Assembly (NCBI GenBank): GCA_002724315.1
Contig: PBOJ01000017.1
Location: 1-64,000 of the forward strand
Reading direction: 5' to 3'
Length of the DNA stretch: 64,000 bases
DNA from: Planctomycetaceae bacterium
GTDB taxonomy: Bacteria > Planctomycetota > Planctomycetia > Planctomycetales > Planctomycetaceae
Part shown: piece by piece, positions 18,686 to 24,400 of the stretch
How positions within the stretch are numbered: the stretch's first letter is position 1
Layout of the letters: each line of letters starts with the position of its first letter
The notes under the pieces: generated by a model
Told to the model about the DNA's origin: nothing
The model's input: the letters and a program-made list of their open reading frames with translations, nothing else
The model's database searches: none
Translations under genes and position numbers: made by a program

Positions 18686-19714
18686 TCACCTGGTCGACGG
18701 CAGCAATTCCAGCAGCGCGAGGGTCGCCCAGCACGTACCGCAGATCGAAATGAACTGCGACTTCTCGTGTGGAAAACCCGAATCGAAGAACTTCTGGATC
18801 GCCTTGCTGCGAGTCGTGACCAGCCACGACCCATCGGACTTCACCGTCTTCAACAGGTACCGGCACCCCTTCTGGTAGGATTCGTCGCCGACCTTCATCC
18901 CGGCAGCCTTCAGAGCAAACAACGCCTGGCCGGTGGCATACGAGTCGCCCTTTCGCTCGGGCAACTGCGACCACCCCCCGTCGGGTCGCTGCTTCCCCTT
19001 CAACTCACTGGCCAGTCGTTGAACATCCGTCTTCCCGGCCCCGGCCCACACCAGCCCCAGAAGTCGAAACACGCGGTCCTCGTTCGTCTTCGCCTCGGCC
19101 TTCAGCAGCCACTTCCTCGTCCGCGGGATCCGCTCGGCCAGGTCCTTGGCGCCATCCTTACCGGCATAAAACTGGAGCCCTCGCAAAGACAGTGCCGTGG
19201 CGGTGAAATGACTGTCTTCCAGTGGAGGACGATGTGTGCGGATCCGCCAACTGCCATCGCGTCGGTGCTTTGTCCTGAGGTAAGCCACCAGGTCGTTTGT
19301 GACCGAATCCGGTTTCCGGCCATCGGCATGCAGTCCCCACAGTGCATAGCCGGCGTTGTAGGGACCACCTGGCACCCCTTCTCCAACCCGAACCCGCTTA
19401 CTGCGACCGTTGAAATACTCGTACGTGAAATCCGACTGTTCGGCCGTCATTTCAGCATCGACGGCAAACCCGGCCCGACGGGCACCGGCAATGGCCACCG
19501 AAGCCAGCCCCTGATGATGACAGCTGAAGCAGTCCCGTTTCTCGACATACGTTGCCGCACTCTTCTGCAACAGCGCCACACTGCGATTCAACACATCGCG
19601 AACCGCTTCGGGAGCGAGCGGACCGTCGGCCGCCATCAGCATGCCGGCCCCGGACAACACCAGCACCGCCCCGGCAAACAACATCCTGAGAACACGCACA
19701 CCTAATCCCGTCAT
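18686..19714 (-). CDS. Secreted alpha-toroid (squalene cyclase/prenyltransferase-repeat) protein with CxxCH
   Basis: Protein of 342 residues. After a signal sequence (MTGLGVRVLRMLFAGAVLVL) come helical repeats with DGSWRIRTHR, DGGWSQLPERKGDSYATGQALFALKAAG and SDGSWLVTTRS, the QW-like repeats of terpenoid-cyclase toroids. The DxDD acid motif of cyclases is absent. RDCFSCHHQG near residue 67 offers a CxxCH haem-binding site, so an electron-transfer or binding role is more likely than cyclisation. The ATG overlaps the stop of the PSP1 gene by four bases (ATGA), ending a long minus-strand run that begins near 28848. Confidence 0.8.
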   Translation of the reverse strand: MTGLGVRVLRMLFAGAVLVLSGAGMLMAADGPLAPEAVRDVLNRSVALLQKSAATYVEKRDCFSCHHQGLASVAIAGARRAGFAVDAEMTAEQSDFTYEYFNGRSKRVRVGEGVPGGPYNAGYALWGLHADGRKPDSVTNDLVAYLRTKHRRDGSWRIRTHRPPLEDSHFTATALSLRGLQFYAGKDGAKDLAERIPRTRKWLLKAEAKTNEDRVFRLLGLVWAGAGKTDVQRLASELKGKQRPDGGWSQLPERKGDSYATGQALFALKAAGMKVGDESYQKGCRYLLKTVKSDGSWLVTTRSKAIQKFFDSGFPHEKSQFISICGTCWATLALLELLPSTR

Positions 19715-20247
19715 GCCTGTTCGTCCCCGTGGCTGCTGCCGCAACCACCGCTGCCACAACCACCACCGCCACTTCCACATCCACCTGGCTCGGGATCAAA
19801 CATCGGCGAGAGCCGAATATCTCGACCAGTCCGTTTTGACTGGAACACAGCAATCCGCTCGGACTCCTGCCCGACTTCGCCCAGGCAATACACGACCACA
19901 GTACGACCGTCGATCAGCAATTCGGCATCGACCGGCTCGAGTTCGGCCGCCTGGTGACGAATCGTCTCAATCAACTCATCCAGATCGACGGCATCGGTGC
20001 CATCGACCTCCAGATCCTCTCGACCGGCCAATCGCAACACATCCCCCGCGGGACTGACATCGCCGACATGGTGCTCCGCCACATTTGACAGCAACTCCCC
20101 CAGTTCCAGTCCCCGCTCCGTCTGAATCACCACGCTGTCGCCGTGCTCTGCATTCAACTCGTCGGTGGCACTGAACAACGCCACCCAGCCCAGCCGGCCG
20201 TAGCGGACCAGGCACGCGGTTCGCGTCAGCACCTCACCATTTCCCAT
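19711..20247 (-). CDS. PSP1 domain protein with Gly/Cys-rich tail
   Basis: Protein of 178 residues. ACLVRYGRLGWVALFSA and VVIQTERGLELGELL are the signature of the PSP1 C-terminal domain, known from yeast Psp1 and Bacillus YaaT/RicT-like proteins that act in regulatory complexes, some with Fe-S clusters. The C-terminus is a low-complexity GCGSGGGGCGSGGCGSS run with three cysteines, a possible metal-binding tail. It lies between an ATP-grasp gene (36 bases upstream) and the overlapping toroid gene. Function in planctomycetes is unknown. Confidence 0.75.
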   Translation of the reverse strand: MGNGEVLTRTACLVRYGRLGWVALFSATDELNAEHGDSVVIQTERGLELGELLSNVAEHHVGDVSPAGDVLRLAGREDLEVDGTDAVDLDELIETIRHQAAELEPVDAELLIDGRTVVVYCLGEVGQESERIAVFQSKRTGRDIRLSPMFDPEPGGCGSGGGGCGSGGCGSSHGDEQA

Positions 20248-20283: not shown

Positions 20284-21510
20284 TCAGCCGTCCTTGAACA
20301 CCAGTGTCAACTCCCGGTGTGCGGTGTGCAATGCCCGTTCCACCTCATCGGCGGTTTCCCCCCTGGCAAACACGAACCCGGGGTAGGGCCCCCCCTCGGG
20401 CCAAGGCAACAACTGCTGACCGGGATGAGCCGTAATTGCCACTCGCTCGACCCCCGCCACCTCCTCGGCCATCTCCACTCCGTCAACACGCAACAGGGTT
20501 CCACCTTTCTCGACCGGCAGCATCATCACTCCCGCCGCCGACTCGACCCGTTCCGGAAGTGGAGCTCGATCGCCGAGCGCATGATGCAACAGAATGTCTT
20601 CAAGCCTCAGACCGGTCCCGAACCGCAACACATCCGAACACAACCCGCCGATCGCCCGCGGATTGATCTCGATGACCACCGGCCCCGACTCAGTGACCCG
20701 CAATTCGGCATGTACCGCCCCTTCGGTCAACCCCAGCGATGCACAGGCCTCTCGGCACATCTCGCCCACCTCCTCCTGGCACTCCGCCGACAATCGTGAC
20801 GGAGTCAGGTAGATCGTTTCCTCGAAGTATGGTCCCTCCAGGGGCTCGGGTTTATCGAAGACGGCCAACACCTCCAGTTGGCCGTCTCTCAACAGCCCCT
20901 CGATCGCCACCTCGGGACCAGACACAAACGACTCCACCAGGAACCCTTCCTCGATCGAACTTCCTGATTCGCCGGCAACGATCGACTCGAGTCTCGACAC
21001 AGCTTCCATCATTTCCGCAGGGTCATCGACACGAATCACGCCCCGACTCGCCGACAAGGACAATGGCTTGACCACGGCTGGGAACCCGAACACCGGTGTT
21101 GTAGCCCGTTCTGGACCTTCAAACCGACGCCATTCAAATCCGGGGCAGGCCACCCCGTCGGCGGACAGTTGTTCACGAGCCCGTCGCTTGTCGCCGGCCA
21201 CGGCCACCGCCGCGGGATTGTTGTGCGGCAGACCCAACTCACGGGCCACAACGGCCGTCGCCTCAACCACGGTGTCGTCGATTCCGACCACCGCGTCGAT
21301 CGGGTAATCCTCATGGAACTCCCGCACCGGCCCAGCACAGGCGTCAGGAGACGAGAAGGGCAGAGTGAGAAACCCTGCGGGATTGAGATGAGCGACCGAA
21401 CTGTCTTCTTCGGACGCCACCGTCAATTCGACTCCGCAACGTGCAGCAGCAGCCAGCAACGCCGGGGTGCGATATGTCCGCGTCGGCAGCATCAACAGCA
21501 ACCGGGGCAT
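20284..21510 (-). CDS. ATP-grasp domain ligase
   Basis: Protein of 408 residues with the ATP-grasp plan. A Rossmann-like preATP domain occupies about 1-110. The ATP-binding segment has GFPAVVKPLSLSASRGV and EEGFLVESFVSGPEVAIEG, and the Mg-binding end is AELRVTESGPVVIEINPR. Such enzymes join a carboxylate to an amine or thiol by an acyl phosphate. The C-terminal 100 residues resemble those of biotin-carboxylase/carnosine-synthase-like ligases. The substrate is unknown; involvement in a cofactor side chain (for example glutamylation) is only a suggestion from the cofactor genes nearby. The nfuA-like stop is 20 bases upstream. Confidence 0.85.
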   Translation of the reverse strand: MPRLLLMLPTRTYRTPALLAAAARCGVELTVASEEDSSVAHLNPAGFLTLPFSSPDACAGPVREFHEDYPIDAVVGIDDTVVEATAVVARELGLPHNNPAAVAVAGDKRRAREQLSADGVACPGFEWRRFEGPERATTPVFGFPAVVKPLSLSASRGVIRVDDPAEMMEAVSRLESIVAGESGSSIEEGFLVESFVSGPEVAIEGLLRDGQLEVLAVFDKPEPLEGPYFEETIYLTPSRLSAECQEEVGEMCREACASLGLTEGAVHAELRVTESGPVVIEINPRAIGGLCSDVLRFGTGLRLEDILLHHALGDRAPLPERVESAAGVMMLPVEKGGTLLRVDGVEMAEEVAGVERVAITAHPGQQLLPWPEGGPYPGFVFARGETADEVERALHTAHRELTLVFKDG

Positions 21511-21530: not shown

Positions 21531-22130
21531 CTACTTCTTCGACGGGGCGTAGTAGGGATTGTTTCCGGACGCGTGATCGGTCGTATCCATGATCTCACCG
21601 ACCTGGGGGATTTCCGACCGAATCGCAATCTCCACGCCCTGCTTCAGCGTCACGTCGGCCATCCCACACCCCTGACAGCCCCCACCCATCTGGACGTAAA
21701 CCATGTTCTCCTGGACGTCGAGCAACCGCACGACACCGCCATGGCTGGCCACCGACGGATTGACCTCGCGGTCGAGAATCCCCTGAACCCGGTCGCGCAA
21801 CACGTCGACCGGCGGAATCGTCTCACGCAGACTCGCCTCAACGGCGGGTTCCCCGGTAGCCAGGTGCTCACGGATCGCCGCCCCCACCTGCTGGCCGACC
21901 TCCGGCCACGGTGTCGGGCCGTGCTTGGTGACGGTGAGTCGATTGTCGGTGATCAACACCGCGGCAACGCCTTCGATCGCAAACAGACGCTTGGCCAACG
22001 GCGACATCTCAGCCGCCTCGGAACTGCCGAAGTGAAACGACTGGTCCGGATACAACGGCCGATCGACGGTGAAACGGCACATGGTGGGAACATTCATCGG
22101 TTCGCCGCTGATCTTGACATCATCCGTCAT
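21531..22130 (-). CDS. NfuA-like Fe-S cluster carrier
   Basis: Protein of 199 residues. The N-terminal Nfu_N-type domain (about 10-95) has TVDRPLYPDQSFHFGSSEAAEMSPLAKRLFAIEGV. The C-terminal NifU domain carries VNPSVASHGGVVRLLDV and the cluster-binding pair in GGGCQGCGMADVTLK. Proteins of this type hold and pass on [4Fe-4S] clusters. AAAGGA precedes the ATG at good spacing. A possible promoter lies just upstream, so it may be expressed separately from the DUF169 gene. It sits two genes away from a radical SAM enzyme that needs such a cluster. Confidence 0.88.
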   Translation of the reverse strand: MTDDVKISGEPMNVPTMCRFTVDRPLYPDQSFHFGSSEAAEMSPLAKRLFAIEGVAAVLITDNRLTVTKHGPTPWPEVGQQVGAAIREHLATGEPAVEASLRETIPPVDVLRDRVQGILDREVNPSVASHGGVVRLLDVQENMVYVQMGGGCQGCGMADVTLKQGVEIAIRSEIPQVGEIMDTTDHASGNNPYYAPSKK

Positions 22131-22219: not shown

Positions 22220-22912
22220 TTAGCCGACCTGCTCTCCGGATACGCGACCACCGTGGAACGTCTCGAGCGCATGATTGGCCGACACGATCGCTTCCAGCTT
22301 TTCCTGGACAGCCTCAACCTGATCACCCGGGAGGACCACGTAGAGTTCATTGTCATCGATGCCGGTGTAGACACGATTGCCGACACAGCCAAGATTCGTC
22401 ACAAACTGCGTTCTCTGCATCACTTCAGGGATTGCTGCACAGGTCGGACGCCCCATCGTCGGCCCGCCCGGCACACCGGCTGACGTCGCCGCCTCGGCCA
22501 ACACCATCATCTGCCGAGGGGTTCCCTGGACGATAACCGCATCCACTCCGCAGGGGGCCAACTCCAACGGCGAATACACGACTGCTCCGAACGACTCGGT
22601 GCGGTGAGGAATTTCGGGAACTTCCTCCATCCGCACGTACTCGAGTTCGACCATCATTCCGATCATCTGCTGCTGCCCCTCAGCCTCGGCCTCCGGCAGT
22701 TCCACCCCATGAGTGAATGCTCCGATCGGACACGAGAAATGGTCCTCCGGAACCGTCGCAACCACCTGGCCGCCTGCGGCCTGCTGCCAGTAACTGCACC
22801 CCGACAGGGCGGATTCTTCCACACGCTCGACTCCATCAGGCACTTCATCGACAAACGCGACAGCCACCGCCGATTCGGACAGACCCAACAACTCCTGCAA
22901 CCTCGAACCCAT
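22220..22912 (-). CDS. DUF169 family protein
   Basis: Protein of 230 residues of the DUF169 family, widespread in anaerobes and archaea and functionally uncharacterised. Recognisable elements are SGCSYWQQAAGG near the N-terminus, HFSCPIGAFTHGVELP, the middle APCGVDAVIVQGTP, and RPTCAAIPEVMQRTQFVTNLGCVGNRVYTGI, with several conserved cysteines that could bind a cluster or metal. GAGGAG stands five bases before the ATG at 22912, which is therefore preferred to a GTG two codons earlier that overlaps it. The gene begins 21 bases after the TAG of the selenoprotein gene and is almost certainly cotranscribed with it. Confidence 0.87.
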   Translation of the reverse strand: MGSRLQELLGLSESAVAVAFVDEVPDGVERVEESALSGCSYWQQAAGGQVVATVPEDHFSCPIGAFTHGVELPEAEAEGQQQMIGMMVELEYVRMEEVPEIPHRTESFGAVVYSPLELAPCGVDAVIVQGTPRQMMVLAEAATSAGVPGGPTMGRPTCAAIPEVMQRTQFVTNLGCVGNRVYTGIDDNELYVVLPGDQVEAVQEKLEAIVSANHALETFHGGRVSGEQVG

Positions 22913-22933: not shown

Positions 22934-24400
22934 CTATTCAATCACGAGAGACTCAAACTGAGTCTCGGTTGGCTCGGCTCAGCAAAACCAGTCCTCGGTC
23001 AATCGCGGAACCGGCCGGCGATCGATCGTTGCAGCCGACTGTTCCGGTGTCAACGTGAGTCCGGCCAGCCCGGCAATCCGAGAAAACGTCTCCCCCACCT
23101 TCTGGTCGCCACAGGCTGCCGCCTCAACGACCTCCGTAACCTGGCCGTGCAACGCATCCATCTCCGGGTCCGGATGCTTCCATCGCCACGACCACGCCCC
23201 CGCATCCAACTCACCGCGATGAGGAACGAAGTCGGGATGCTCCTCCAGCAACGAACCTGGCGGGACCAGCAACCGGATGGCAAACTGTACAGGATCGACA
23301 TGGCCGACCAGCCTCTGGTCGACGACGAACTCCAGAATCTCGCGGTAATCGTCCCGGGTCGTCCAGGGCGTGAACGGAACCCATGTCGGCCGCACCGGCA
23401 ACCCCACCTCACGGCACCGTTCCAGGGCCACCAGGACGTCATCTCGGGTGTGTCCCTTTTCCAGAATCTCAAGGACGGGATCGGCCAGAGCCTCAACCGC
23501 CGAAATCACGAACGCCGCTCCACACTCGACCAAGTCCGGCAACACGTCACCACGTTCAACCAGGTGCTCGACTTTCGCGGTGAAGTCAAACGTCACGCCA
23601 GGAAACCGATCCGCCAGGCCGCGGGAGACACGCACAGCGTGAGCCGGACCGTTGAGGAAATCGGGATCGGCAAACGTGATGTGACCGGCGCCGGCGGCGA
23701 CCTGCTGTTCGATGTCGGCCAGAACGACCTCCGTCGGCACCGCCACGAACCGGCCGCCATAAACCGGGGGAATCGGGCAGTGCGTGCAAAGGTGCCGGCA
23801 CCCCCGGCTGGCCTCAACCGTCCCGGTGGTCACGACCTTCACGTGCCCGTCGTCGTCGACCGATTCGAATCCCGCGTACTTGTCCAGGCCGGGCAACGTC
23901 GACCGATCGGGCACGGGAAACTCCTGCCGCGCCCGCCGGACCTTTGGATCGATGGCCACCGGCTCTTCGCCTCGTTCCCAACTCTCCAGCAATGCGACCA
24001 GTTCGCCCTCGCTCTCTCCCCCCAGGCAGGACACCGCGCCGGCCTCCAGCAGGGCAGGGGCGTTGAGCACCGCATAGAGACCCGAAAACACCACTCTTGC
24101 ACCCGGGTTCTCTTCTCGAACCGAACGAGCCACTCGAACACCCAATTGCAGTGCGGTGTGCATTGGCACGGCGACCACCACAACCGCCGCTCGGCGAAGA
24201 TCGCTTCGTGACAGTGGTCCCACCGACACGTCGCAGCAAATCGGGTCAAATCCCGCCCGCCTGAGAAATGCCGACGGCCAGGCGACCCCCAGTGGCTGGT
24301 GCCCCAGTTCGTAGCACGACACCAGCAACACCCCGCCGTGACTCCTCAGCGCATCGCCTGGAGCCCACCTCTCCACGGGCATCACCGACCTCTCTGACAT
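22934..24400 (-). CDS. B12-binding/radical SAM selenoprotein with Cys-Sec-Ala-Glu-Pro tail
   Basis: Protein of 488 residues if the TGA at 22979-22981 is read as selenocysteine (Sec474), with the true stop a TAG at 22934-22936. The N-terminal cobalamin-binding-like domain (about 20-140) includes VLLVSCYELGHQPLGVAWP. The radical SAM cluster motif CRHLCTHC is at 201-208, followed by FADPDFLNGPAHAVRV as in B12-dependent radical SAM enzymes. The end reads TEDWFC-U-AEP plus eleven residues. A radical SAM family with this CUAEP or CCAEP tail is known to me, without assigned function. A SECIS-like hairpin follows the TGA. If read as a stop, the protein would lose its conserved tail. It lies two bases after the DUF1501 gene upstream of it. 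Confidence 0.88.
22948..22966 (-). promoter_or_regulatory. Bacterial SECIS element
   Basis: The minus-strand RNA folds as GAGACUC-AGUUU-GAGUCUC: a perfect seven-pair stem with a five-base loop whose second base is G. The loop begins 19 bases after the UGA at 22981-22979. These features meet the published bacterial SECIS rules (hairpin just after the UGA, G in the first two loop positions). No T-tract follows, so it is not a terminator. It lies within the coding frame of the Sec-containing tail. Confidence 0.82.

Follow-up and report, generated by a model that had tools for sequence, protein, structure and literature searches.

A predicted CUAEP-tail radical SAM selenoprotein and its co-travelling ATP-grasp amino-acid ligase in a Planctomycetaceae genome

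Closest described systems and the CUAEP-tail gene

Radical SAM proteins that end in Cys-Sec-Ala-Glu-Pro or Cys-Cys-Ala-Glu-Pro are already known to NCBI as a database family, NF040546 ("CUAEP/CCAEP-tail radical SAM (seleno)protein"; curated cut-off 500), whose name gives no function. The family is missing from a prokaryotic selenoprotein inventory of 2026 that covers 119 families and subfamilies, and a full-text literature search, outside whose reach two Haft selenoprotein papers lay, found the term CUAEP in no paper. Two other families, TIGR04167 (rSAM_SeCys) and TrsS (NF045646), both of them in that inventory, likewise have a radical SAM domain with one selenocysteine. Among named relatives, the one closest to the CUAEP-tail protein is ArsL (NF040542) of arsinothricin biosynthesis, which transfers the aminocarboxypropyl (ACP) group from SAM to As(III) (PMC8552651; also cited in PMC12159101) and is thought by its authors to have one cluster (PMC8552651).

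The window analyzed here, a stretch of 64,000 nucleotides from a Planctomycetaceae bacterium (contig PBOJ01000017.1), carries a gene whose product very probably belongs, as a selenoprotein, to the CUAEP-tail radical SAM family, judging from its sequence and that of its relatives, with an in-frame TGA as the selenocysteine codon. The features of the gene are as follows.

22934..24400, minus strand: gene for a predicted CUAEP-tail radical SAM selenoprotein, 488 aa if UGA is taken as Sec (NF040546 600.8 bits; Radical_SAM PF04055 48.6 bits)
23777..23800, minus strand: radical SAM CX3CX2C cluster motif, Cys201/Cys205/Cys208, kept in 76-77 of 77 relatives
22979..22981, minus strand: TGA, predicted selenocysteine 474, right behind Cys473 (TGA in 65/79 relatives, TGC/TGT in 14/79)
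22948..22966, minus strand: SECIS-like hairpin with a 7-bp stem, an AGUUU loop with G second, and 19 nt from UGA to loop

The frame starts at ATG 24400, with a second ATG at 24382, and standard gene calling stops it at the TGA, so that automated annotation cuts the protein short, as the original prediction had said. Read through, the 3' end (TGG TTT TGC TGA GCC GAG CCA ACC GAG ACT CAG TTT GAG TCT CTC GTG ATT GAA TAG, with the TAG terminator at 22936-22934) gives the peptide ...WFC-U-AEP-TETQFESLVIE, that is, Cys-UGA-Ala-Glu-Pro plus 11 further residues. Direct reading of the sequence found the coordinates and residue count previously given for this tail to be exact. The radical SAM family with a CUAEP or CCAEP ending to which the original prediction referred is NF040546, which the protein matches over residues 24-483 and profile positions 1-467 of 468. 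It is a full member, with an identical tail and Sec/Cys position.

The second-best NCBIfam model is ArsL, at 274 bits over residues 24-425. The two proteins share their domain order, but the curated ArsL cut-off of 450 is not reached, and where the ArsL family name implies a Cys-rich end (RCCLKC), the CUAEP protein ends in Cys-Sec-AEP instead. Neither TIGR04167 nor TrsS is among the NCBIfam matches. A sequence search for close solved structures of the radical SAM protein found none. Its AlphaFold model (mean pLDDT 92.4) has AprD4 (6FD2) as the closest solved fold, with TM 0.65-0.69 across the whole model and 19% identity; MiaB is also among the fold matches. AprD4 is a diol dehydratase, and we know of no Cys-Sec tail in it.

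Probable selenocysteine at the in-frame TGA

Across 84,980 species genomes scanned, more than 580 places encode relatives; the best 80 of these were retained, and 79, from about 15 phyla, have a readable tail. The codon at the Sec site is TGA in 65, TGC in nine and TGT in five, with nothing else observed, and all 79 run on beyond it with AEP or near variants. The expectation that homologues would keep the tail past the TGA, some with a Cys codon in its place, was thus borne out, 14 of the 79 having such a codon. All 77 members compared match NF040546, and in their tails Cys, Sec/Cys, Glu and Pro are invariant (77/77) and Ala nearly so (75/77). Besides the three cysteines of the radical SAM motif, those conserved are Cys29 (74/77, with Thr or Ser in the remaining three), Cys473 and Sec/Cys474. 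Within the phylum, the family scores above its cut-off in six of 392 genomes, with exactly one TGA in each, and the tails of these six all read W[FY]C-U-[AS]EPT. On a tree built without the tail, where Planctomycetaceae are the nearest kin, the Sec/Cys label needs four changes versus 13 in shuffles. Cys forms are found in Nitrospirota, Ignavibacteriota/Bacteroidota, one Acidobacteriota and marine Euryarchaeota, and Sec is retained in about eleven phyla.

The source genome (5.69 Mb, 175 contigs, 92% complete, 3% contaminated) holds the whole machinery for which a search had been proposed, with selA, selB, selD and tRNA-Sec all found. The tRNA-Sec scores 75.5 bits and is confirmed by ARAGORN as SeC with anticodon TCA, and selA adjoins selB on the same contig. 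The selD gene (C25:21123-22043) has its own in-frame TGA near the N-terminus, within WASCAG-U-AGKLPQ; SelD is therefore probably a second selenoprotein of this genome, missed or cut by standard annotation. With 175 contigs and 3% contamination, it is possible that the sel genes, being on other contigs, were binned wrongly, but the relatives show the same link of Sec genes with the UGA form. SelA was detected above cut-off in 32/36 genomes with the UGA form versus 1/14 with the Cys form (Fisher p 8e-8), and SelA or a strong tRNA-Sec in 35/36 versus 2/14 (p 9e-9). In the one UGA genome left over, a fragment of SelA sits at the edge of a contig.

A SECIS-like hairpin lies 12 nt after the TGA, just where it had been described, with arms GAGACTC (22966-22960) and GAGTCTC (22954-22948) around the loop AGTTT. 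Published bSECIS criteria (PMC13188914) call for a 3-9 nt loop, a 4-16 bp stem, G in the first two loop positions, a distance of 16-37 nt from the UGA and an MFE of at most -7.5, and the hairpin agrees with all four published measures (5-nt loop, 7 bp, 19 nt, -12.3 kcal/mol). By itself the single-sequence fold at this energy is not significant (z -1.76, 11/200 shuffles as good). Together with the conserved tail of the 79 relatives, the restriction of the codon to TGA or Cys and the covariation described below, it nevertheless amounts to more than chance.

Mean tail folding energy is -15.9 kcal/mol in UGA members versus -8.5 in Cys members (p 1e-6), and the best stem falls in one register in 64/65 UGA members, with loops of 3-5 nt, while Cys members have no common stem register. 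In the class with 5-nt loops, 256/294 cells are paired, and none of 2000 shuffles of the arms gives more than 221. The count is somewhat inflated, as the class was picked by its stem, and the shuffling ignores relatedness; the Cys-member control in the same register has 44/98 cells paired. The second stem pair of this class occurs as UA, CG, GC, UG and GU. The class with 4-nt loops is too uniform for covariation (150/161 cells, 76/2000 shuffles as high). The peptide behind the tail tracks the hairpin class, with QLDPL/QFGPL accompanying 5-nt loops and QLAL accompanying 4-nt loops.

UGA recoding occurs in some bacteria, and the codon could in principle be decoded as Trp or Gly in a recoded genome, yet the replacement in relatives is always Cys, the upstream gene in the window itself terminates in TGA, a tRNA-Sec with TCA anticodon is present and SelA tracks the UGA form, which leaves this reading a negligible chance. 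Equally negligible is the view that translation ends normally at the TGA, with the conserved tail arising by chance or from a separate reading: it agrees with standard gene calling and with the non-significant single-sequence fold, but all 79 readable relatives continue with the tail, 14 of them through a Cys codon, the hairpin covaries and the NF040546 protein model reaches beyond the TGA. The selenocysteine reading of the original prediction is thereby supported, through the Sec machinery and the tail conserved beyond the TGA in homologues. In this reading, UGA would be decoded as Sec by the genome's own SelA, SelB, SelD and tRNA-Sec, directed by the hairpin that starts 12 nt downstream.

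Neighbouring genes and a candidate partner ligase

Downstream of the radical SAM gene, four genes lie on the same strand.

22220..22912, minus strand: DUF169 (PF02596) protein, the next gene downstream (Pfam match)
21531..22130, minus strand: Fe-S carrier protein with Nfu_N and NifU domains (Pfam match)
20284..21510, minus strand: putative L-amino-acid-ligase-type ATP-grasp ligase (BL00235 as the nearest relative of solved structure, E 2.5e-43)
19711..20247, minus strand: small protein with a Gly/Cys-rich C-terminal tail (3/80 loci including the window)

Within 5 kb and on the same strand as the CUAEP gene, among the best 80 of more than 580 loci, an Nfu protein is found at 35, the ATP-grasp ligase at 29 and a DUF169 protein at 17, and these neighbours are spread over several phyla. 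The small protein, which has no Pfam match and which may resemble PSP1, is kept beside the module only in the nearest Planctomycetaceae. A Pfam neighbour scan of the loci, whose tiling of ORFs was biased towards antisense frames where the DNA is GC-rich, gave no strongly recurrent additional partner, and no arsenic genes were seen beside the CUAEP gene among the first 25 of 67 neighbour families listed.

The distribution of these genes across genomes identifies the ATP-grasp ligase as the best-supported candidate partner. A ligase match is present in 46/50 CUAEP genomes, nearly always as a single copy, and within the phylum the ligase occurs in 5/392 genomes, each of which is one of the six CUAEP carriers (chance ~8e-11); one of the six (90% complete) has no ligase match, and the ligase is not always adjacent to the CUAEP gene. 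DUF169 proteins of this kind occur in 3/392 phylum genomes, all with CUAEP (2e-6); the literature that mentions DUF169 gives no function for it. Nfu proteins occur in 65/392, five of the six CUAEP genomes among them, and Nfu was rejected as a specific partner by profile, being too common.

No NCBIfam model matches the ligase above its own cut-off. Its nearest solved relative, BL00235 (3VOT), is also an ATP-grasp amino-acid ligase and aligns over residues 15-406 of the partner ligase, although distantly (152 bits); BL00235 has been reported to make Met-Ala (PMC4302092). The association of the CUAEP gene with this unannotated ligase, an Nfu protein and a DUF169 protein is new here.

Some individual loci are recorded as separate observations. 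In marine Euryarchaeota (L070:1518-2909, L082:7995-9392), the Cys form has an Nfu gene directly downstream, and SelA was not found in these genomes. The complete genome of Anaeromyxobacter oryzae Red232 (L073:7989-9413) has the UGA form together with SelA and tRNA-Sec, which would make this named strain convenient for tests. A gene for a PF04362 bacterial Fe(2+)-trafficking protein (L087:7651-7983) lies just upstream of a CUAEP gene, and a cluster of seven loci holds such a gene.

Possible chemistry of the module

The likeness to ArsL and the company of the ligase suggest a short pathway to a methionine-like amino acid or dipeptide. The enzyme would hold one radical SAM [4Fe-4S] cluster, and its B12-like Rossmann domain would probably be without cobalamin. 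The C-terminal Cys-Sec pair, perhaps with the near-invariant Cys29, may reach the active site and hold a soft atom, which could be a metalloid, for instance As(III), or else some form of sulfur or selenium; Cys29, Cys473 and Sec/Cys474 would make three soft ligands and so would suit As(III) or a cluster. SAM would be cleaved to a 3-amino-3-carboxypropyl group that is joined to the held atom, giving a methionine-like amino acid, which the ATP-grasp ligase would couple to another amino acid, while the Nfu protein may supply or repair the Fe-S cluster. ArsL-like chemistry would yield 2-amino-4-X-butyrates, a product class akin to methionine, and the partner ligase is similar to an enzyme that uses methionine, an agreement that is suggestive only.

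By analogy, aminocarboxypropyl transfer of the ArsL kind is a tentative proposal that we hold at well below even chances. Against it stand the missed ArsL cut-off, a family without a described product, the lack of arsenic genes among the first 25 of 67 neighbour families and a ligase that is not always adjacent. The dipeptide step, likewise argued from a related enzyme, is possible but doubtful. The full proposal, that a widespread module of a selenium-dependent ArsL-like enzyme, a dedicated ligase, Nfu and DUF169, spread over bacteria and marine archaea in about 15 phyla, produces a methionine-like amino acid that bears a metalloid or chalcogen, and a dipeptide from it, with Cys-Sec holding the transferred atom, is in our estimate rather unlikely.

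The alternative that survives best gives the Cys-Sec pair a redox or cluster-binding role, in which it would help to hold a sacrificial auxiliary Fe-S cluster that serves as sulfur donor and is rebuilt by Nfu. Lipoyl synthase uses up an auxiliary Fe-S cluster as sulfur donor in this manner. Several papers deal with the connection of NfuA/NFU1 to renewal of the lipoyl synthase cluster, and the frequency of nearby Nfu genes, the predicted fold's match to MiaB and the three potential ligands Cys29, Cys473 and Sec474 all fit such a role. However, Cys29 is Thr or Ser in 3/77 members, the Nfu neighbours would equally suit plain cluster delivery, and the closest family, ArsL, has one cluster in its authors' view. 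We regard an auxiliary cluster as possible, though with the odds clearly against it.

Quite improbable is a cobalamin-dependent methyltransferase of the B12-binding radical SAM class, to which a weak B12-binding match (31.4 bits) and the weak matches to the HpnR, methyl-coenzyme M reductase glutamine methyltransferase and PhpK models would point. The B12-binding match falls just under its cut-off of 32.1, and no methyltransferase model comes near the ArsL score (about 40 versus 274 bits). The best fold match is to AprD4, which is not known to need cobalamin.

In total, reading the TGA as selenocysteine mends a truncated annotation in a family that is curated by NCBI yet missing from the 2026 inventory. 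The family is wide. About eleven phyla keep its Sec form, and the Cys form occurs for the most part in genomes that lack the Sec system; such a family would give those lineages one more reason to retain selenium. The gene's close association with an amino-acid ligase that carries no annotation offers a concrete handle on the product, and this co-travelling peptide-bond-forming enzyme hints at an unexplored selenium-dependent biosynthetic pathway.
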